Translations under genes and position numbers: made by a program | DNA from: Patella vulgata | Taxonomy: Eukaryota; Mollusca; Gastropoda; Patellidae | Direction: 5' to 3' | NCBI RefSeq assembly: GCF_932274485.2 | Contig: NC_065879.2 | Coordinates: forward strand, 34,342,436 to 34,406,435 | DNA: 64,000 nucleotides | Shown: piece by piece, positions 7,995-64,000 of the stretch | How the letters are laid out: each line of letters opens with the position of its first letter | How positions within the stretch are numbered: position 1 is the stretch's first letter | Notes under the pieces: generated by a model | Databases searched by the model: none | The model's input: only the letters and a program-made list of their open reading frames with translations | What the model was told of the DNA's origin: nothing

Positions 7995-9530
7995 TACTCA
8001 GCCAAATTAAAAACTTGACACTCAGGATTTTTGGGACTAGATTTTTAATATTTGGTTTAAGGCAACTATTTTAGTGTTATGTTGTGCACAGACGACCTTG
8101 ACATCAACAGAAAGCAAGAATACGTCTCGCCGAAAGTCCTTGACATTGATAACGTTCGTGATGTCTCAGTACCCCCCTAAATGAAATTCACATACTTGGA
8201 GAACAATCGGAATAAAGTATTTAGTAACGGTTGTGGCCTCCTCTAGCGTCTTGTACTGCCACACAAAGTCTTCTCATGGATCTCAGAACATTAGTAAACA
8301 CTACCCGAGGAAGACGTCGCCACTGCTCAGCAAGAGCATGTTCAAGGTCCTGCAACATCAGTGGTGGATTCACTTGCTGACGAACACGTCAACCCAGTTC
8401 GTCCCAGATGTGTTCAATAGAATTAAGGTCGGGGCTAAGCGACGGCCAATCTAGGACTTGGACACCGGCATTTCTTAAAAAATTCTGGGTAGCAATTGCT
8501 GTATGGGGTCGAGCATTGTCTTGTTGAAACGTTAGTCCAGGCCCATGTCTCTGCATAAACGGAAGAAGAACAGGTTGCAAAATCTGATCTCAGTACTGGA
8601 CAGCATTTAAGTTCCCTTGGACAACAACAAGAGGAGAATGTCCATGTGCACAAAAAGAACCCCAAACCATGACGCTGCCGCCACCAAATCGGTCAACTTC
8701 TCTGACGCATACTTGAGCGTAACATTCACCTCGTCTGCGGTACACTCCGACCCTGCCATCAGCAAATCTCAAAGTGAATCGAGATTCGTCACTAAAGACA
8801 ACCGAATTCCACTTTCTTTGAGTAAATCTTATGTGTCTTGTGGCCCACACAAGTCGGTTACGGCGATGAAGAGGTGTCAATATTGGTCCATTATAGGGCC
8901 CTCGAGCTCGAAGACCAGCAGCCTGCAAGCGATTTCGAACAGTTTGTGCAGTTATCTTCCACCAAACATCTCTCTACTTGTGGAGGTTGCAGTGACAAAT
9001 CTGTTTCTAAGATGACGTAATCGTATTGCTTGATCTTCCTGGAGTGACGTCACACGTGGCGCTCCCGCCCTTGGGCAGTCGGCAATAGTTCCAGTTTGAA
9101 GCACTCTCATTCTAAGATTAATTATTGTCTGGCGTGAACAATTAAAGGCTCTTGCAACAGTGACCACAGACTGACCAGCATAGAGCCTACCTATAGCACG
9201 TAGACGTTCTACATTTGAAAGGCGCGGCATTTTCTAACAAAGATGAAAATAACAATTTTAATTTGTTTTTCCAGTTCAAGTTACGTGTGCGTGTTCAGTT
9301 TAAGCAGACTTGCATCGATTGACCTCACGAGTTTGTGTTTGCACGTGTTTTTCAGGTTTTTCATCTTTATATGCTCAAAAGTCCCGTGATCCACGTGACT
9401 TTACAATTTTATGAAATTAAAGGCTTCTTACTACTTACTATCGTTAGAAACACTTTAAAATTTATTTGACTTATCAGAAAAAATTTTTTGTTGAAATTCA
9501 TCAGTGTCAAGTTTTTAATTTGGCTGAGTA
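7995..9530 (-). mobile_element. Tc1/mariner transposon, full length but decayed
   Basis: 28 bp at both ends are perfect inverted repeats (outermost bases TACTCAGCCAAATTAAAAAC), flanked by TA at 7993-7994 and 9531-9532. The length is 1536 bp. A Tc1-type transposase lies inside on the minus strand but is broken (separate entry). The contrast between intact ends and a broken gene suggests past mobilisation in trans, or chance preservation. Confidence 0.93.
8221..9230 (-). pseudogene. Tc1-like transposase, broken
   Basis: The reading starts MPRLSNVERLRAIGRLYAG at 9230 and ends ..ARGGHNRY with a stop at 8221-8223, the usual Tc1 length of about 336 residues. Visible parts in order: an N-terminal helix-turn-helix (VARAFNCSRQTIINLR), FSDESRF with the first catalytic Asp, GGGSVMVWGSF, FQQDNARPH with the second Asp, and SPDLNSIEHIWDELG with the Glu (DD34E spacing). 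One frame change lies near 8940, and two in-frame stops lie near 8587 and 8390, so no active enzyme is expected from this copy. Confidence 0.9.
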
Positions 9531-9540
9531 TACTTGTTCG

Positions 9541-10030
9541 TCTCAAGATCTTAAACTCTGTGTCACAAGATTTTGCAAAGTGATCAAGGGCCATAATTTT
9601 GGCAGTAATTATTGGAAATCATTGAAAATCAATAGGAATCTTTGTCTCATGACATCAAACACTGTGTATAAATCTAAAGTCAATCGGATATTCACTCTAG
9701 CCTCTAGAGCATCCACAAGATTTTTTGAAGTGATCAAGGGCCATAACTCTGGCAGTAATTACCGGAAATCGCTGAAAGTCAATAGGCTTCTTCGTCTCAC
9801 GACCTTAAACACTATGTATAAATTTAAGTCAATTGGATATTAACTTTGGTCTCTAGAACGTCGACAAGATTTTTCAAAGTGATCAAGGGCCATAACTCTG
9901 GCAGTAATTATTGGAAATCGCTGAAAATCAATAGGCTTCTTTGTCTGAAGACCTTAAACACTGTGTATAAATTTAAAGTCAATCAGATATTCACTTTAGC
10001 CTCTAGAGCGTTCACAAGCAATTGTGGACG
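9541..10030. repeat. Three tandem ~150 bp units of family A
   Basis: The phrase 'gatcaagggccataa' recurs at about 9583, 9733 and 9883, giving a 150 bp period. Units also share 'ctctagag' and 'cactgtgtataaat'. The second and third units are closest to each other. Open frames spanning the units exist only because the repeat lacks stops in that phase. Confidence 0.8.
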
Positions 10031-23429: not shown

Positions 23430-23783
23430 GGGATCACGTGGCTAAGTGGGTAAGACGCTACCTGGAGGTCGGGTGTTCGATCCCTGCATTGGCCGAGAAA
23501 GTTCATCCAGATTTTCCGGCGTGGTTCTCCCTTGTCAGTGATGCAGGACGGAGGGGCTGACAAGGAAAGTTGTCTAGTCGTTCGGATGGGATGAAAAACC
23601 GAGGCCCCGTGTACACATTGGCGTGCATGTAAAAGATCCCTTGGCAGTTGGAATTCGATATAAGAGTAGGCCGTAGTGCCTCTGTCCGGACAAAATTTCC
23701 TTCATAGCACACTGTATGGCGTATGCCCGTCTTCATTAGCCCAGGTTAGGAGCAGAACAGTAGGACGTTAAACTCCATTTCAT
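23430..23783 (+). mobile_element. SINE family B, near full length
   Basis: The tRNA-like head has box A-like GTGGCTAAGTGGGTAAGACG and box B GGTGTTCGATCCC. The body is characteristic (agaaagttcatccagatttt, tgtacacattggcgtgcatg, cacactgtatggcgtatgcc) and the tail is tttcattt. Short flanking repeats ttcaaag (23423-23429 and 23784-23790) are probably the target duplication. Closely similar to the 58.7 kb copy. Confidence 0.9.
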
Positions 23784-24391
23784 TTCAAAGCCAACTCAAT
23801 AGGGCATAAAGAATAACACATATTTTACAATTCCTGTAGCTTTATAAAGTAATACATATATTATATATTCCTGTAAAGTCATCATTAAAAGATTTTATTA
23901 TCTGGACACCTTTATGTATACCTCTATAAACATATTATATGTATGTGTATGTGACCCGGTGTTATTTGGAGGGGTCAAAAATTCTGGCCAAATTTAACAA
24001 TGAATATAGATTGAAAATAATACTTTGGCCTGAAATATCTTTGATTACAGTCCGTTATTTTTGCCTAAAAATAGTTTTTTTTATAATCTCCAAAACTGTT
24101 TGACCGCCCCTTGACCCCTGCCTAATTACACACATCATTATATTCATTTAATTTACACTGTACTATACCTTACTTCAATCATTCAAAAGGGAATGTTTTT
24201 GATGTTCAGTAGCACAATGGATATATTTCTCTGCATATAAAACATTACTAATGGAAAAATTTTTTTTTCCTTTTTCAAGGTTTACAGATAATAAAAAATA
24301 AATAAAACAATCAAATAATATTAAATTTTTGGGGGAATAAACTTGTCAGATTTCAAAGATTTTGAATAATAATAAGTTATACACATTTTAG

Positions 24392-26915: not shown

Positions 26916-28430
26916 TACTATTCAAAAAAAGTAGGGGATATTTGATTTTGGGGGCATAATACTAAAATATGCAAATGACTACGAAAAAAGTCACTATAGA
27001 ACCTAACAGAAGAAACATTTCCAGTTACATGTGACGCCCAAACGCACCAATAGCTACCGCATGGAATGCAGGCGATGCTTGGGATCATCACGGGGGTCCA
27101 ACCCAAGATTTGCACGACTCTGACTTTGAATGATACAGTCATTGTGGCATTGAATTCCAGGGTGGAAACATCAGTTTAATTGTTTTAGTGACCAGAAAAC
27201 AAATTTTGATATGCGTCGGCTTACCCAAAATGAAAGGTTACATGCCCTTGGCATGCTAGAGATCGGCACAACACAGGCGGTTGTGGCGCGGACGATGAAT
27301 GTTTCTCAGTCTGTCATAAGCAGGCTATGGTCCAGATGCCGTGATACACAATCTGTACAGGACAGACCACGCTCAGGTCGACCAAGGGCGACAACTCAAG
27401 CCCAGGATCGATTTATCCGTACCTTGGCCTTGAGAAATCGTGTCATCACAGCAAATCAGATCAGCGCTCGTCTTCAAACAGACACTGGTGTGAGAGTGAG
27501 TGGCCAGACGATTCGGAATCGACTGCATAGGGGTCACCTTCGCGCCCGACGTCCTCGCGTGATACCTTGTTTGAGAGATCATCACATTCAGGCAAGACGT
27601 CGTTGGTGTAGGGATCGTCAACACTGGGATAATCGACGCTGGAGCAATGTGATGTTTTCAGATGAGTCAAGGTTCACTGTTGATATTTTGGACAGACGTA
27701 GGAGGGTGTGGCGTCGTCGAAACGAGCGCTTCCAAGACGTTAACGTCATCAGACATGATCGATTTGGGGGTGGTTCTGTTATGGTGTGGGGAGGCATCAC
27801 TGTTGCTGGAAGAACGGCTTTACATGTTGTTGCAGGGCGTGTTACAGGCCAGTACTACCGGGACAACATCTTGGCAGTCCATGTTGTGCCGTTCGCACGA
27901 CGTCATGGCCGCCGTTTCATCTTCCAGGATGACAACGCAAGATGTCACAGGGCCAGGATCGTTACAGGTTACCTCCAACAACAGAACATCACCACATTAC
28001 CTTGGCCAGCACTGAGTCCCGACCTCTCCCCCATCGAGCATGTCTGGGACATGCTTGGACAGAGGTTACGTCAACGTCAACAACGTCCTGCCAATGTCCA
28101 AGAACTTGCTGCTGTGTTGCAACAGGAATGGGACAATCTGGACCAAAATGACCTTAGACGTCTCATTAGGAGTATGCCACGTCGGATCAATGCTTGTTTG
28201 GCAAACAGAGGAGGATTTACCCGTTACTGACTTGATTGTGATGCTGTGACCCCGGGTATCATTTTACCCTTATAATGGTCAGTCTGTGCCTTACTTAGTC
28301 TAACGATCATTTGGAATAAATCGATGAATGTGAACTTCATTTCATTTTGTCATTTGTTTCTTCGTCAGTTTCATTAGGTGACTTTAATAACACTTAAAAA
28401 TCAAATATCCCCTACTTTTTTTGAATAGTA
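26916..28430 (+). mobile_element. Tc1-type transposon, apparently complete
   Basis: 34 bp at each end are identical inverted repeats (outermost TACTATTCAAAAAAAGTAGG). TA target duplications lie at 26914-26915 and 28431-28432. Length 1515 bp. One uninterrupted transposase frame occupies the middle. Full ends plus an unbroken gene mean a recent insertion, possibly still competent to move. A related deleted copy lies at 38.7 kb. Confidence 0.96.
27211..28230 (+). CDS. Tc1-like transposase, intact (339 aa)
   Basis: It catalyses cut-and-paste excision and TA-directed integration of the flanking element. Residues about 1-60 form a paired-like helix-turn-helix (MRRLTQNERLHALGMLEIGT, then VARTMNVSQSVISRLW). 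GRPR at about 56-59 is the linker that touches DNA in this family, and a second helical DNA-binding part runs to about 120. The catalytic domain has FSDESRF (first Asp), GGGSVMVWGGI, FQDDNARCH (second Asp, in D-N) and SPIEHVWD (Glu); exactly 34 residues separate Asp and Glu (DD34E). The protein ends RRINACLANRGGFTRY, normal for Tc1. Length is typical. The first ATG has no upstream competitor. Confidence 0.97.
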   Translation: MRRLTQNERLHALGMLEIGTTQAVVARTMNVSQSVISRLWSRCRDTQSVQDRPRSGRPRATTQAQDRFIRTLALRNRVITANQISARLQTDTGVRVSGQTIRNRLHRGHLRARRPRVIPCLRDHHIQARRRWCRDRQHWDNRRWSNVMFSDESRFTVDILDRRRRVWRRRNERFQDVNVIRHDRFGGGSVMVWGGITVAGRTALHVVAGRVTGQYYRDNILAVHVVPFARRHGRRFIFQDDNARCHRARIVTGYLQQQNITTLPWPALSPDLSPIEHVWDMLGQRLRQRQQRPANVQELAAVLQQEWDNLDQNDLRRLIRSMPRRINACLANRGGFTRY

Positions 28431-48400: not shown

Positions 48401-51400
48401 GTAGGAAGGTTTTTTGCTATTGGACAATCAAACTACTTGACTACCACACTACTACAGACCTTGTGAAACACCAACTTTTTGTATCATAATTTTATTGCAG
48501 ATTGTTATATGTGCTGGACAAAAATATTCCATCAAATTATTTTTGGTGTTGTATTTTATATGATTTATTTGTTTTTTCTTTGTAGTGGCCCAACATTTAA
48601 TAGCCCAACACAGTTCTATAAAGATGTTACATAGTCGAGTTAAAATTATATTGGAATATATCAAAGCTGTACAAGCCGGTTAGTACTATCTTATATTTAT
48701 TAATTTATACATACATAACCATAGATAGAAAACTCAGATCGGACCTTACCAAGATAACATCAGCGCTCGAAATAAACCACGGCAAACGGCAAAACCGGGG
48801 TAAAAGCCAACGCAACCCCCGTCAGCCACGGCATAATTCATATTTTTTTGCCGTGGTAGATCTTATGATCCTAATAATGACTAAATGTACCGGTTATAGT
48901 ACAGTACCAGGAGGATGTCGTCTGACCGTGCAATAATGTCATATATTTGTTTATCATTTTGACGAACGTCTGACAAATATATTGTAATTATCGAATACCG
49001 GTACACTTTTAACCCATGTGCTGTAGGCATATCCATGCTTTACCGTTACAGTGGTGTTATTTTCAACGATTATAAACTAAAATATACATAGAGTGCACGG
49101 ACTGTTGCCTAGTTACTCTGGCTAATGCATGGACAATGTTACCATTCTCGTCATTTGTATTTTTAACTGTATATCGTTTGTCACATACGAAGGACCTGGA
49201 TCGATTCACACCCTTTGTTTATAATTACTACGCCCTATGTAACGGATCGTATAAATTCAAAATATTTATTTTCTTGCTATTCTTTCAAACCAAAATTACA
49301 TAAAATAGATCTGTTTTAGCGTTGTAACAACAATATGCCAAACAAACAATAAATTTTAAATTCATTTCACGAACTTTTTGCGCGTATGGATACACATAGC
49401 TTACTTCCTCCACTCTTTTTGACACTCGTCTGGCATTGATGCCGTCTCACTCTTAATTCTCATCAGTTTTTATTCCATAAATAATGGGGATTAGAAAAAA
49501 AAATCGTCGATAACTGGAAACTAGATAGCATTGGTTGTGAGTTAGAATCCAACAACAGTAATGTTGTTAAACGTATTTACTGTAAGGTATGCTGTGAAGT
49601 ATATGGCAGTCCGGAATCCGTTATGAATGCCAGTGCCACAGATGGGCCTGTACCGGCGTATTTTCCACATCAACGTATTCGTGGAAATGTAATGAGAAGA
49701 ATCGATAAATGGGTTACAGGTACTACTGTAATAAAGAAATGTAATGCCAAAGACCATGTTAATATATTAAAGTACACCAGGATGCATTACTTAGACACTG
49801 TAGTGAAAACCCCCCTGCGTCAAGTTGGCTCTAGTACTAGTACCGGTAGCTGCGATTTGACAGTTGAAGAAAATAATATGTTGAAGTCAAGCCAGATTAC
49901 TATTACCGAATCACGTAGAAAACTGTATGTTTCACACAAAAAACAATTGGTTAAAAAATTCCAACTTGCCCATTTTGTTGCTGCAAATACCCGGCTATTT
50001 ACCGACTAGCAAATTTTGAAAAAAATATTCATGGTGTTGATTTGGGAGGTGGGTATCTCTCAGACAAATCTGGGCGTGAAATGGTCTCAGTATTAGCACA
50101 CTGCATAAGAAAACAGGAAGTTACAGAACCCTTAAATGATAAACAAAGAATTTATTATTCACTTTTCTATGATGGGTCTAGTAGTGCCAAAACAATGGAT
50201 GAAAAAGAATTGTATGTAAACAAAACTTGCAAAGATGGAAGCCCAAGTTCCAAATACTGTTATTAGAAGAACCAGAAAACTCAGATGCAGAGGGCCTTAA
50301 GGTGGCTTTGACAACTTGCATGAACAAACAAGGATTTGTCTTCAATAGAAGTGAACGACAGATAGGCAATGGTAGCGATGGAGCTGCTGTGAACAATAAA
50401 CTTTTTGAAATGGAAAAAAATGATATAGGTGATCATCTTATACAAGGATGGTGTGCGAATCATAAAAATGAACTAGGAATAAAGGACAGTTTAAGGGATT
50501 GCAACTTAATTCTGAATGTCAGGAACTGCTAGACAGCGTTTTTTATTTCTTCAAACGTGCTAATTTGAAGTTCAGGTTACTGAAAAGACAGGCATTGTTC
50601 ATAAATCAAAAACTATATAAATATAAAAGACCTAATGGAACTAGGTGGGTGTCTCATTAAGTGGATTCCTCCGACAGTTTTATCAAAAACCTTCCTATTT
50701 TTTTGCCTTTTGTAATCAACAAATCCATTCGCCACACAAAAAAACTATGAAAGATTCTCGTCTAAAGCTTCAGGGGTTGTTAAAAAATTCATCAAAACTA
50801 CCTACTTTGATTTTTCTTTGTGCTCGGAAAGATATTCTTTCATATATGACACCGTTTTCAAATATTTTACAAAAGCACGAATTGCTTGTGCCTGAAGGAG
50901 TTACATCGATGAAAGCACTCATTCAAACACTAGAAAAGTTAAAGGACTTGGTCCATGAAAAAGGTTCAGATGCATTGTACATGGAAGAGTACTTCCCCAC
51001 ATTAGCCAAGTTATGCTGGCCTTTCTTAAAGGAAGACATTCCAGATCAACTTTTAACTGCACGCAACTCGTGGGAATCCCGGTTTTGCTGTGCACTCAGT
51101 TGGGGATTCTAACAAAAAGTCATTCCATGGGTATGCTATGACAACTACCTTGGAGGAAGCTCTGTCGTTGGTCATAAGAAATTTAGAAGCTATTCTTGAA
51201 AATTTATGTGTTAACATAAAACAGAGATTTTCCAATTTTACTGATAACCCTATTTATTTGGCTGTAGCCAATCTTTTGGACACGAAGGGGTACCAATTTA
51301 AGAATAAAGCAGATATTAAGCAATCGATACAACTATTAACTGAACATTTTTCACCAGTGTTAGCGGCAAATGGCTGTGACACTTTGAAAATACAACAATA

Positions 51401-54400
51401 ATTTGATACGGTGCATCTCAATGTTAAAACATTTAAAAAAAATTCATCAAGTCACAATGTTTGGCCGCAACGTTTTCAGTCAAGACTTGATTTAGTTATT
51501 GATAATTTTTTGCATTTAGCAGAAATCGCAATAGTTGTACCGATAAGTAGTGCTGAGGTTGAGAGAGTATTCAGCAAATTTGTAAAAAAATTTAACAAAA
51601 GACAGACAATCTTTAAAAAATCAGACAAATGAAGATTTGTTAATAATTAGCAGTTATAGTGTCAGTTTCAATAATTGTGAAGAGCTGTACAATAAAGCCG
51701 TTGAACACTTTCTCCAAACAAATCCTGATGGCGGTGTCGCCAAAAGAAAGAAATAGACGTCCCTGGGGGTATAAACTAAAACGTAAATTGACAGTATCTT
51801 CAGATAGTGCTACATGTAGAAAGAGGAATTGTTTATTTTTGCCATCAGACTCCAATGACACTGATCCCCCACTGACTGATAGTGAAAGTGGCAATGATTA
51901 TGCAGATATAAATAATGTGGATGTAGCCGAAATATCTGTTATTTCTACATCAGATTCAGAATCTGATTCATTTTAAGTTTAATCTTGAATGGATGCATCA
52001 GTTACGTGTAGGACTATGATAAAAAGACTATGAAAGGCTTTTTGAACAGTTGTTTTCGTTTTTAGTAAATTAATTAGCAGAATTTTCATTATTGTAAAAC
52101 TACAGTAAATAACTACAATGGTATATGTAATACCACTTATATTAGTTTTGTTATCATGTGTATAATAAATAAATTTTATCCATCTTGAAAAGTTAAGAAA
52201 AGTAGTGATTTTGATATACAAAAAATGCTGTGGTGCCGTAGCAGTACCATTCTGCCACGGCATTTTTCATTTTTTTGTGCCGTGGTAGAAAATTCTTAAT
52301 TTCGAGGACTGTAACATTGTTACTTTGTTTTGCTTTTCAACTTTTGATGGATTTTTGGTTCACTGAAAAAATTCTCACTTCATTGGTTAGAGAAATTGTG
52401 TTTTCTTTCAGGAAAAATACCTAAAAATCATGATGTTCTTCGAGAAGCTTACAGTCTGTGTTACCGGTTACCAGTTTTAAATACTCACACATTTAAAGAA
52501 GATTTTTATAATGTAAGTTAAAGATGCTGATCGTCATTTGAAGAATTTCGAATCCCTTGTAAACTACAATATTGTAAAAATTGAATCTCTAATATCCAAA
52601 TTATTCAATTCCATTCAACATTTATAATGATATGATGAATTGAACATAAATATTAGTGAATTAGCAGTATGGGATTTTATTTAGATGTTTGTCATGGTAG
52701 AAGGACACCTGACTCTCAACCAGAATCAACCCTGTATAAATCCTAGCATAAATTGTGAAGAACAATAATTATACTGACATCTCCAGGACACTTTTCTGCA
52801 ACATATTTATCATATGTCAGTCCCAACATGACCTAGTTGTGTAGAGTGAAATTTAAATTAATATGTTTAATAGTTGATATTTAAACATTATGCAAGAGCT
52901 AAATCTGCAGGTCTTTCTTTAGGTCTGAAATGTTATCTAAATTATTAATTCGACATTAATTAACTTATCCAGACCATAATCAACTCTCAATGTCTTCGCT
53001 AGCCTGCGATGTTTATTGGATTAGGTTCCAATTTGCTGTTAGACTTCCATTCATTATTTAATCATGAAATGGATAATCAAGACTTATGTTTTTTATCGTA
53101 CTGACTTTAGTAATGATGATCGAGGCTAGTCCGAAAATTCAATCGCTAAAATCTTGGTTCAGAGTAGAACAATTTAACTGAAATTTTCAGCAAATTCCCT
53201 TTACATTATCTAATTTTTAACTGTTATTATGAGAACTGCCAGCTATTTATCTAATCTCCCATAATGTATCTTTAATATATTTTTAGCAATGTAATGATGT
53301 TGGGTTAATGGCATATCTTGGAGCAATGACAAAAGGATGTAATACAATGAACCAGGTAGGTGAATTTATATTAAACATGACAAATACGTATTTTGAACTG
53401 CTGACATATGCTTTTTGCAACGTGAACATTGAAATAATATTGGCAACATGATCCTTCCATAAGCAACCCCGCCTAACTCGTTGGAGGTAGCTCGACCTGT
53501 CTATTGCTAGGGACGGTAGAGATTGATTCTTGAATTCAAAATTATTCAGTGGTTTTGAATTATGAAACTTACTGAAACTTGCTGAAAAATTGTCAAGATT
53601 TGTAAAAGTATGAATTTGAATGATTGCTTTCTTATCTTTACAGATACATTATAAATGTCATATTAACTACGTTAAACTTTGGATAAGTCGGATTCATAAA
53701 AGTCGGATTTTCACTCAACTCAGATAAAATCGTTTGGACCCTTTGATCCTGCACATTTTTCTTATTAAATTTCTAGGTGTAAGTCAGATTTTCTAAGTCG
53801 GCTCTTTGCTCAACTCGGATTGAAATGTTCGATCCATTTGATCTAATTCCGGCTTTTTTCCTTCACCTAAGTCGGATCGCCAGTATCTTCAGAATTTGAC
53901 TTAGTCAGTTTCGTCTCGATGGTCTAAAACACGGTTAGGTATTCCACGAACAGAGCCCCAAAATATTTTCCCCAATCAAATCAGCCTATTTGTCGCAACG
54001 CAATAACGGGAAAATTCGAAACTTGCTGTTTGCTGTATGAGACACTTTCCTGGAAAATTTAGGACATTTTTCAAAGATGGCGACAAAACGAAAGTTATCT
54101 ACTTGCACCAAAATGGAAGTTATCTACTCGCACTTACAAACAAAACCTTTAAATGTGCCTTTGAATCAACTATTTTTCGGCTCTTGCAGTTTATTTCTAA
54201 TCGAGCTAAGATTGAATTTCGGTCTTCGGCTAACTCGGATCTTCGCTTAACACAGGGGGGTTGGATGGCTGAATGGTTAGCGTGCGCGCGCTGTATCATA
54301 AAGTCTGTCATTGAGTCGACTGGCGTGGTTTCGAATCCCCGGTTGTACATGACAAGGAGCAGGGTCGCCTGTCTAACCTCGTGGGTTTTCTCCAGGTCCT

Positions 54401-58708: not shown

Positions 58709-59070
58709 AGCTTGGCTAGGTGGTTAAGACGCTGGCTCGCTAGCCTGGAGGTCGGGTGTTCGATCCCTGCATTGGTCGAGAAAGTTCATCCAGATTTTCC
58801 GGCGTGGTTCCCCCTTGTCAGTGATGCAGGACGGAGGGCCTGACAAGAACAGTTGTCTAGTCCTTCGGATGAGACGAAAAATCGAGGTCCCGTGTATACA
58901 TTGGAATGCACGTCAAAGATCCCTTGGCAGTTGGTATTCGATATAAGAGTAGGTGATAGTGCCGCTGCCTGGGCAAAATTTCCCTCATAGCACACTGTAT
59001 GGCGTATGTCCGTCTTCATTAGCCCAGTATAGGAGCAGAACAGTAGGACGTTAAACCCCATTTCATTTCA
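58709..59070 (+). mobile_element. SINE family B, best-preserved copy
   Basis: The head GGCTAGGTGGTTAAGACGCT has the arm 'ggctcgctagcctggag' and box B GGTGTTCGATCCC, giving a nearly intact tRNA-like start. Body as at 23.4 kb; tail tttcatttca. A further degenerate scrap of family B follows near 59180-59235. Confidence 0.92.
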
Positions 59071-59354: not shown

Positions 59355-59360
59355 TTTATT
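59355..59360 (-). promoter_or_regulatory. Candidate polyadenylation signal of the FYKR precursor
   Basis: On the minus strand AATAAA lies about 160 bases after the stop codon of the precursor, a normal 3' UTR distance. Confidence 0.55.
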
Positions 59361-59520: not shown

Positions 59521-61319
59521 TTACTCCTCGCTTGAATTGTTCCCGACACTCGCTGCTGTATCACGTTTGTAGAAAGATTTCACATTTCCTTTTTGCTGAT
59601 GGTCAGTAGCCCGTTTGTAGAAACTGTTTAATTTTTCGCCATTTCGTTTGTAAAAACTTTGTTGGTTACCGTCTGACCTTTTATAGAAACTAGCAAGACC
59701 ATTATTAGTTGATCGTTTGTAAAAGTTGTTCAAGTCATGTTCGCCTACAGTTCTTTTATAGAACGAACTCATGTTCTCGCCAGATCTTTTATAGAAGTTA
59801 GATATGTGGTCATTCATTGATCTTTTGTAGAAATTCGATATTCTTCTCTTGTAAAAATTGGAAAGTTCTGAACTTGGGGATCGTTTATAAAAATGAGCCA
59901 TGTCGTCGTTCCTAGCTTTTTTGTAGAATCTGTGAGGATCACGTTTGTAGAAATTCAATAACTCACCGGAGCCAGGTGTGCGTTTGTAAAAGTTGGATAG
60001 ATCGTCAGAACGTTTGTAAAAGTTGGATAGATTGTCGGAACGTTTGTAGAAGTTGGATAGATCGTCGGAGCGTTTGTAGAAGTTAGATGAATCGCCCGAA
60101 CGTTTATAGAAGTTGGACAAATCGTTAGAACGTTTATAGAAACCGGACAGATCACCCGAATGTTTATAGAAGTTTGACAGATCGTCTGAACGTTTGTAGA
60201 AGCTAGACAGATCAGCTGAGTTAAGTGCTCGTTTATAAAAGCTAGACTGAGCTCCAGAGCGTTTATAAAAGCTGGACTTGTCACCAGAGCGTTTATAGAA
60301 ACTGGACAGATCATCGGTGTCGGGTGTACGTTTATAGAAACTAGACAGATCATTGGCGTCGGGTGTACGTTTATAGAAACTGGACAGATCATTGGCATCG
60401 GGTGTACGTTTATAGAAACTGGACAGATCATTGGCGTCGGGTGTACGTTTATAGAAACTGGACAGATCCTCCGTGTCGGGTGTACGTTTATAGAAACTGG
60501 ACATATCATCAGTATCGGGTGTACGTTTATAGAAGTTGGATAAATCATTAGCGCGTTTATAAAAGCTGGACAGATCGCCAGAATTTGGAGCGCGTTTATA
60601 AAAACTGGATAGATCGCCAGAGCGTTTATAGAAGCTGGACATATCGTCAGTATCAGGTGTACGTTTATAGAAGTTGGATAAATCATTAGCGCGTTTATAA
60701 AAGCTGGACAGATCGCCAGAATTTGGAGCGCGTTTATAAAAACTGGATAGATCGCCAGATCGTTTATAGAAGCTGGACATATCATCAGAAACCGGTGCAC
60801 GTTTATAGAAGTTGGATAAATCATTAGCGCGTTTATAAAAGTTTGACTGACCTTCAGAGTCTGGTGCGCGTTTATAAAATCTGGATAGATCGCCAGAGCG
60901 CTTGTAAAAGCTAGATACCGGTGAACGTTTATAAAAACCGGAGATGGCTGAACCGGGTACTCGTTTATAGAAACTTTCAACTTCAGTATTTAACGGCGAT
61001 CGTTTGTAAAAGCTTGATGCTGGACCAGCTCGCTTATAGAACGAACTCTGTCCATTGTTTCCAGCTCTTTTGTAAAATCCACTAACACCATTGCTAGATC
61101 GCTTATAGAAACTTTGCACTCTTCCCAAATCACGCTTATAGAATGAACTCGTATGCTCGTTTGGCGACCTTTTATAAAATGAATTTACTGGGAATCGCTT
61201 GTAAAAAGACATTTTGTTATTGTCCCCTCTTTTATAGAAGGCATCCATTATACCGAAACGGTCTCTCTTATAAAAATGACTCAATCCATTGTCTCTTTTA
61301 TCCATTATATCTCCAGTAC
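59521..61319 (-). CDS. Multi-copy 'FYKR' secreted peptide precursor, main exon
   Basis: One 1.8 kb coding exon encodes 51 consecutive short units of 8-16 residues, 49 ending FYKR, one FYKH and one FYKK. The commonest unit forms are TPDANDLSSFYKR and SDDLSNFYKR. Dibasic KR after every unit is the cleavage pattern of prohormone convertases; processing would release about 50 peptides ending in free Phe-Tyr (no Gly before KR, so no amidation). The tail DTAASVGNNSSEE is acidic. An acceptor tatcatttcag ends at 61320 and the exon starts in phase 1 with GTGDIMDKR, so the signal peptide must come from an upstream exon, which I could not find. No spacers separate units. I do not recognise the family; a neuropeptide or other secreted peptide role is inferred from architecture. 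Confidence 0.88.
59980..60189 (-). repeat. Seven 30 bp S-[DGN]-[DN]-L/S-S-x-FYK repeats
   Basis: Units 33-39 are each 10 residues (SDDLSNFYKR type). Unit 33 ends FYKH, losing its dibasic site, so units 33 and 34 may remain joined. Confidence 0.9.
60289..60483 (-). repeat. Five 39 bp TPDxxDLSSFYKR repeats
   Basis: Units 25-29 are each 13 residues; three consecutive ones are identical (TPDANDLSSFYKR) and nearly identical in DNA. This is the most recently expanded part of the gene. Confidence 0.93.
60484..60897 (-). repeat. Three-copy higher-order repeat inside the precursor
   Basis: Peptide units 13-16, 17-20 and 21-24 each have lengths 10-13-10-13 residues (46 aa, 138 bp). The second and third copies are identical in protein (SGDLSSFYKR, APNSGDLSSFYKR, ANDLSNFYKR, TPDTDDMSSFYKR); the first is diverged. 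This shows expansion by unequal exchange of four-peptide blocks. Confidence 0.93.
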
Positions 61320-62370
61320 CTGAAATGATAAACAAACTTTCATAAAAGATACAAATTAGTAAGCTACCGGTATCATAAAAACATTTCTAATATTCGAACG
61401 GATATGTAGGAGCCTGCACTCTGTAATTATGATTTCTTACATTCAAGAAATTTAAGGGTCACATAATATGTCTGTGAATGTTTCATGGTAATTCACTCGG
61501 TCTATTTATATGTTTTTTTATAATTCTGGCGGGTGCCACACACAGAGTAAGCACATGATACTACTTGCACAATTGGATACTACTGTTTCACATTTAGAAA
61601 GTAGATACTATTTACAACATTTTTGTCTTTCGTTTTATGGACTCTTTGTCTTTAATTACCCCTCAAGATTGATCACGGACGGTATTATTTCTATTAAACT
61701 GGCATTTAAAAAGGTGGAAAATATGTTGTTGGACATACGCACACCCACAACCAGGTTATGTCGTGCGACATTTTATAAAGTAATGAAATAAACTAAAGTT
61801 CAGTTTAGAAGTAGATAATGAATTTAATAACATCTAGGAAAGAAAAATTCGTGTATGGTTGAAATCCGGAAATGAATTCGTGATTTTTTAAGGATCTTTA
61901 TGCAATTTAAAGCGTTGTCAAAGATAATATCAAATATTAGATTTCGTGCTTGATTGTAATTTACTTGTCAAACAATGACGTATGGTGGACATTTAATACA
62001 GGACTAGACAATGGGTATTTTTGTTTAACCATTCGATAACATTGGTTTCTTTCTGATCGAGGGGTAGAGGCACGTAAATCTGTACTGGTTGTGCCATGTC
62101 AAATTTACAATCTAAAATTGTTTCAAACTGTTTTACAGTCGTAATATGAAAGCCTTATTTAGCTGATCAGTTTGGAGTGGTTTATTGAATCACGAGTAAA
62201 TCTAATGCCAGGTTCCCACTGGCACGATTCGTGCTACGATTGAAATCGTGATTATAATCGTATCAGGTCTTATTATATTACGATGTCAGTCGTAGCAATC
62301 GTGTTGATTGTATCGAAACCACAGGCACTTGAAGGGATTAAAATGAAACTTCTTACTACTGTTTGATTAT
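61320..62370. other. No supported gene; likely intron upstream of the precursor
   Basis: Just past the acceptor of the peptide exon. I checked minus-strand ATGs here for a hydrophobic leader ending in phase 1 and found none convincing. Near 62205-62310 'ggttcccactggcacgattcgtgctacgatt' looks like one end of a DNA transposon, without a partner. Confidence 0.4.
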
Positions 62371-62610
62371 GGGGGTTGGATGGCCGAATGGTTAGCATGT
62401 GCGCGCTGTATCATAAGGCATGTCATTGAGTCAACTGGCGCGGTACGTGACAAGGAGTAGGGTCGCCTGTCCAACCTCGTGGGTTTTCTCCGGGTCCTCC
62501 GGTTTCCTCCCACTGCTAAAGACCCCTACGCGCAAGCGAATTATTGAAATAAAATTAAACCATATGTCAGTCCCGAAATGGCCTAGTTTGTGTCGAGTGG
62601 ACGTTAAACC

Positions 62611-62651
<41 letters not shown>
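62371..62651 (+). mobile_element. SINE family A, box B region deleted
   Basis: The head TGGCCGAATGGTTAGCATG is intact, but about 20 bases containing box B (tttcgaatccccggttg) are missing between 'actggcgcgg' and 'tacgtgac'. Body complete; (CT)n tail of over 30 bases. Confidence 0.93.
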
Positions 62652-62654
<3 letters not shown>

Positions 62655-63071
62655 TCTGAATGCTAATTTTAGTTTTAGTAACACGTCTCGACCAATCAAA
62701 AATAAGGACTTTCCCAACGCGACGTCATTGACCTCATTTCGTGTCCAACGAAGTTGATAATCGCCAAGTGATAGCGCTTTGGGTTTGATTTGTAATTAAT
62801 AACGCTGCAAAACGACCAATATAATTACATTGTAAGCTGCGTAATAATCAAATAAAGCCATTGGCAATTAAACCAACGGGAAGTGGTAAAACTAGTGAGT
62901 ATTGTGAGATGATAGCAGACGAAATGTCATCAACAAGTCAAAACAATATGGCGGAAGATATAACTTGTTAATACTGTAATACATAGTCAAGCAGTAGCAA
63001 GAAGTTTTATTTTAAAACCTGTGATCGAAACGTATCCGAACGTATTTGCACGTACCAGATCGTCGACTCAA

Positions 63072-63765
63072 TAGAGACTTTTGGCAAGCGGAATTTTCCC
63101 ATCCGTGTCACGTATCTGTATCGTATACGTGATACGTTGCGTCAATGTAGTTTTAGAGTTTTGGCAAATTTTCGCGCCGCGTACGTGTGCGTCGATCAGC
63201 TGAACTTAGTTCTATTACAGCATGATGGCAGATATCTACCAAGATCACCATCAGTACAGTCAAGTGCCTATTAGAGCCGACAATTTCCCGGAGGAAATGA
63301 AGTCGCCCGACAGTCGCTGAGCTATTAAAAAAAAATAATGTCGAATCTTATTAAAAATCTTCGACTTCGACTCGACTGCAATTTTTGGTTCACTAATGTA
63401 TCATTTCAGAAAGTTTATACCCCTTTACCACAGAATAAAATCATTTACAGAATTGCAATTTAGCACGTAGATCAACCATCATGGTTAACATCGCGTCAAA
63501 TATACACCTTCGTGTTCTAGAATATACAAAGATTCATAAAAACGCTACGATACAACAATTCCGCGTCTAAAAGTAGTAAAAAAGACGGTAAAAGGACACG
63601 ACAATGTAATACGGACCTTTTCCGTTTGAAAGCTGTTCGATACGTGCTGCCGTATCCGTGTGACGTATCTCGTATGAGAAATGCACACACATTGATGACG
63701 TCACACGCAAAATCCATACGGATACGCGATACGGGCCAGAAATTTACGCTTGCCAAAAGTCTCTA
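63072..63765. mobile_element. MITE with GAGACTTTTGGCAAGCG ends
   Basis: 17 bp identical inverted repeats GAGACTTTTGGCAAGCG lie inside TA on both sides (63072-63073 and 63764-63765). The inner arms repeat 'cgtatc.gt..cacgtatc' words in both orientations. A 33-codon frame (MMADIYQDHHQYSQ..) lies within but has no support. About 690 bp. Family uncertain (TA or 3 bp duplication: Tc1-like or Harbinger-like). Confidence 0.75.
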
Positions 63766-64000
63766 ATATCTATCGTAATGTAACGCATCGCACGACAGTG
63801 TAACCTGACCTAGCATTAGTTACGGTCCATCGTACAGTTATAAATGATATTCTTTCCAAAATTAATATTAAATGTCCCGTCCATGCTCGCTCGACAACGC
63901 GTCACAGGCAGGGTTGGTTTATTTTATGCAAATCTACACTTGACCGCGTGCACTTTAAAACCTACAACTAGTTTTGAATGAAAATGAAGTATTATGCGTT

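Follow-up and report, generated by a model that had tools for sequence, protein, structure and literature searches.

The classical pedal peptide of Aplysia is PLDSVYGTHGMSGFA. Pedal peptide transcripts number three (A, B, and C) in Haliotis discus hannai, four in Aplysia, and three in Lottia (PMC6523705); a study of brachiopods and nemerteans groups pedal peptides as 1, 2, and 3 (PMC8557429). The abalone PP-A peptide is PFDSIASGRGIAGFA, and three peptides assigned to "pedal peptide B" (PP-B), SPENDLSSFY, SNEDLSGFY, and SRGDGLSNFY, were detected by mass spectrometry in the ganglion peptidome of H. discus hannai (Table 3 of PMC6523705). The PP-B peptides were more abundant in the pleuro-pedal ganglia of mature females, with no marked difference in the mRNA (PMC6523705); these levels hint, at most, that the peptides take part in reproduction or locomotion.

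We analyzed a 64,000-nucleotide stretch of the Patella vulgata genome (the window), the minus strand of which carries, at 61319..59521, what is very probably the terminal exon, large and bearing the repeat array, of a multi-copy proneuropeptide of the PP-B type, with the proviso that its orthology rests on short peptides. The open frame of this exon spans 599 residues from the splice acceptor to a TAA stop at 59523-59521 and 621 residues from stop to stop, in place of the 604 stop-free codons counted in an earlier sequence-only reading of this DNA. The other structural claims of that reading were borne out. By sequence inspection, a good putative acceptor with a pyrimidine-rich tract is present at 61320..61333 (minus strand; tttatcatttcag/gtactgg), which makes 61319 the first base of the exon, in phase 1, and an AATAAA polyadenylation signal lies on the same strand at approximately 59355..59360, about 160 nt past the stop. 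A recount gave exactly 51 FYK(R/H/K) units, after which the precursor ends with the C-terminal tail DTAASVGNNSSEE. The exon encodes no Cys. The repeat also gives rise, as a by-product, to an open stretch of 344 residues in a different minus-strand frame.

The copies are separated by dibasic sites, as in a secreted precursor, the pair after FY being KR in 49 units, KK in one, and KH in one. Most of the peptides encoded by the units have 8 (16 units) or 11 (15 units) residues, and there are 42 distinct sequences among them; LSSFY (10 units) and LSNFY (9) are the most frequent endings, and MSSFY (4), LSGFY (1), and close variants also occur. Tandem Repeats Finder resolved three parts of the array, all on the minus strand: a higher-order repeat with a 138-bp period at 60485..60912 (3.1 copies, 92% matches), in which each block consists of four units (30+39+30+39 bp) and which is a recently amplified core; a run of 39-bp units (TPDxxDLSSFYKR) at 60290..60548 (6.6 copies, 91% matches); and a run of 30-bp units of the SDDLSNFYKR type at 59981..60213 (7.8 copies, 81% matches), inside which the sole FYKH unit is located.

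The abalone PP-B peptides, at 9 to 10 residues and with S in the first position and a (D/G)LS(S/G/N)FY end, resemble the exon units closely, and the LS(S/N/G)FY terminus characteristic of them is present in the units. A C-anchored profile was built from the exon's own units. SPENDLSSFY, SNEDLSGFY, and SRGDGLSNFY scored 21.6, 20.3, and 19.7, respectively; the best of 10^6 random 8-mers reached 18.9, below all three, and the next-best known peptide compared reached 8.3. None of these three short abalone peptides (0/3) is found letter for letter in the exon. The sequence-only reading had been unable to match the gene to a known mollusc family, a statement that no longer stands, since the abalone PP-B peptides are of the same kind (PMC6523705). 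A literature search for LSSFY, LSNFY, or LSGFY peptides led to PMC6523705, a narrower one yielded no further paper, and text searches with FYKR strings and "SFY" names returned nothing relevant.

The C terminus is predicted to be non-amidated in the exon's peptides, as it is in the abalone. Gly precedes the basic pair in 0 of the 51 units, in agreement with the earlier expectation of about 50 related non-amidated FY peptides released by cleavage at KR. The published masses of SNEDLSGFY (1030.42) and SRGDGLSNFY (1114.50) equal those computed for the free acids (1030.424 and 1114.504, respectively), and therefore the abalone FY end is also non-amidated, as judged from these two peptides. Such an end had been called unusual in the sequence-only reading; it is in fact the norm for pedal peptides, which are termed nonamidated (PMC4200219). 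The mass printed for SPENDLSSFY in Table 3 of PMC6523705, 1044.45 Da, conflicts with that of its sequence, 1157.49 Da, probably because of a mistake in that table.

The relation to the classical pedal peptide is less close. The classical peptide and PP-A share with the exon units a multi-copy precursor, a non-amidated end, and a similar C-terminal xLSGF plus one residue, but the exon units are shorter, end in Y rather than in A, V, or M, and are devoid of the N-terminal (P/S)(F/L)DS(I/V) half. The corresponding half of the pedal peptide/orcokinin type, (hydrophobic)-(D/E/N)-(S/P)-(I/L/V), was found in 0 of the 51 units, while the C-terminal feature of that type, a non-amidated xLS(G)F plus one residue, is present; the looser pattern [LMIV]S[GSNA]Fx fits 29 of 51 units, and the strict [LMI]SGFx fits 2. 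Since the C terminus is shared but the N-terminal half is missing, we filed the exon as PP-B type and do not regard its membership of the pedal peptide/orcokinin family as proven, and its kinship to the classical pedal peptides appears to be partial only. One could go further and regard the FY peptides as a separate mollusc neuropeptide family with a receptor of its own, the same processing, and 51 copies in this precursor, for which "pedal peptide B" would be a name of convenience. We consider this possible but not likely: the lack of any unit with a classical N-terminal half such as PFDSI, the unit length of mostly 8 to 11 residues against 15, and the two strict [LMI]SGFx endings speak for it, whereas the shared non-amidated xLS(G/S/N)F plus one residue speaks against it, as do the PP-A peptides, which averaged 5.0 on the unit profile, while permuting their ends gave -11.1 and none of 20,000 permutations scored as high. 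A separate family would refine the PP-B-type assignment rather than oppose it.

Starfish SMP and arthropod orcokinin, of the pedal peptide/orcokinin type, are likewise non-amidated peptides made in multiple copies, but their ends differ from those of the exon units and their profile scores were low. FxRIamide (S-Iamide) precursors are multi-copy too and have an SSF core in common with the exon, and the LSSF and MSSF cores also found in the scallop peptides (PMC5996578) could suggest an FxRIamide-type precursor (xSSFxRIamide). That this is the identity of the exon is extremely improbable, as these peptides carry an amidated RI end, not found in the exon, where all units end in FY with no Gly ahead of the basic residues, and they score about -20 on the unit profile. 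Two further candidates were rejected: clionin, which is cysteine-rich by description (PMC8398477) in contrast to the Cys-free exon, and scallop FYFY, a long peptide with ten cysteines, unlike the exon units. Searches of Pfam, NCBIfam, and PDB gave low-complexity matches only, those in Pfam and NCBIfam being under the curated cut-offs, and no relatives were found in collections of viral and prokaryote genomes, as expected for an animal gene.

We asked whether the array could have arisen by chance or as a plain DNA repeat. In 50 first-order simulations of the window, the longest open frame did not exceed 201 codons and FYK[RHK] occurred at most once in any frame. In the exon, all 51 copies of the minus-strand TTYTAYAAR share one frame, and their spacings (24 to 48 nt) are without exception divisible by three. 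Variation in the codons for F, Y, and K is confined to third positions (45 of 153 across the 51 units, against 0 of 306 for the other two positions) and is entirely silent; the 24 divergent units outside the amplified core gave the same picture (30 of 72 versus 0 of 144). Fisher P values for these counts are not strict, because the FYK motif served to select the units and these derive from one another by duplication. The silent-only variation indicates that the repeat is kept as protein, and a tandem repeat at the DNA level alone would not explain it. The fourth codon points the same way: its only two departures from Arg are those in the KH and KK units, while Arg itself is encoded by a mixture of CGN and AGR codons (CGT, CGC, CGA, CGG, AGA, and AGG), in line with selection on the protein. 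The frame and the units of the exon thus exceed both chance and a plain DNA repeat.

A rival reading is a structural or secreted repeat protein, such as a matrix, silk, or adhesive protein, with FYKR left uncleaved. The length of the tandem array and the exclusively low-complexity matches in Pfam and PDB are compatible with such a product, which is nevertheless very unlikely, since the basic pair is retained while the segment preceding it varies, and the abalone ganglion peptides of the same kind end, by mass spectrometry, exactly at FY with the basic pair gone.

The minus strand upstream of the exon, 61320-64000 (2.68 kb up to the window end), contains no convincing signal-peptide exon. The upstream hydrophobic reading LLICIFYESLFIIS was rejected as a signal peptide, as this stretch corresponds to the acceptor's pyrimidine tract, the translation of which looks hydrophobic (SLLICIFYESLFIIS) and has no in-frame ATG. 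An ATG at 61486 (MKHSQTYYVTLKFLE), followed by a phase 1 donor GTAAGA at 61441, would splice in frame; its product has too little hydrophobicity for a signal peptide. Molluscs commonly have introns of more than 2.7 kb, and one of that size would hide the signal-peptide exon beyond the window end at 64000. The lack of a signal-peptide exon in these 2.7 kb, together with the dispersed repeats that flank the exon on both sides, could alternatively mark this repeat exon as a relic, left behind by a former gene, severed from its signal-peptide exon and no longer expressed. This we regard as unlikely, given the 599 stop-free codons, a frame held through every change of unit length, the silent-only variation of the F, Y, and K codons, the intact polyadenylation signal, and a window that stops within the range of common intron lengths.

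Prohormones are processed by convertases, which cut after KR pairs, and by a carboxypeptidase, which trims off K and R. On the PP-B-type assignment, an upstream exon outside the window would supply the signal peptide, a prohormone convertase in secretory granules would cut after the KR pairs, and carboxypeptidase would then remove K and R from the peptide ends, both steps by analogy with this established processing. The FYKH junction would probably be left uncut or be cut poorly. The predicted output is about 50 peptides, mostly of 8 to 11 residues, with the consensus S/A/T-x-(D)-D-L-S-S/N-F-Y and a free C-terminal Tyr, which may act on a receptor, most likely a G-protein-coupled one. For four of them, the masses computed for the free acids are 874.371 (SGDLSSFY), 959.387 (SDDLSNFY), 942.408 (ANDLSNFY), and 1228.525 (TPDANDLSSFY). 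The copy number would have risen as 30- and 39-bp units, and also the 138-bp four-unit block, were duplicated in tandem and in frame, and the 51 copies illustrate the growth of a precursor by this route. The exon provides a genomic locus for a peptide type otherwise represented, in the literature searched, by three short peptides from one abalone, and it would let the FY peptides be looked for and synthesized for receptor tests. It opens no new kind of system; what is new here is another case of a known kind of peptide, at a high copy number (51).

The window also contains transposon-derived and repetitive sequences. An apparently unbroken 358-residue open frame at 27154-28230 (plus strand) has the Tc1/mariner-type transposase domains HTH_Tnp_Tc3_2 and DDE_3, and a fragment of a second Tc1-type transposase (HTH_Tnp_Tc3_2) lies at 8590-8970 (minus strand). 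Frames at 49485-51976 (plus strand) resemble, by eye, a broken hAT-type transposase-derived gene; pieces of this region gave no match in Pfam. A dispersed repeat of about 280 bp is present in about nine copies or parts (79 to 91% identity), starting at approximately 7252, 10915, 39665, 45149, 47969, 54256, 55625, 57917, and 62371, with one copy on either side of the peptide exon. Another dispersed repeat, roughly 350 bp in length, occurs at 23439-23787 and, just downstream of the peptide exon, at 58713-59070 (89% identical); one end of it resembles, by eye, the head of a tRNA-derived SINE. Finally, a 149-bp tandem repeat at 9564-10018 (three copies, 85%) contains AAGGGCCATAACTCTGG, which is common in mollusc repeats.
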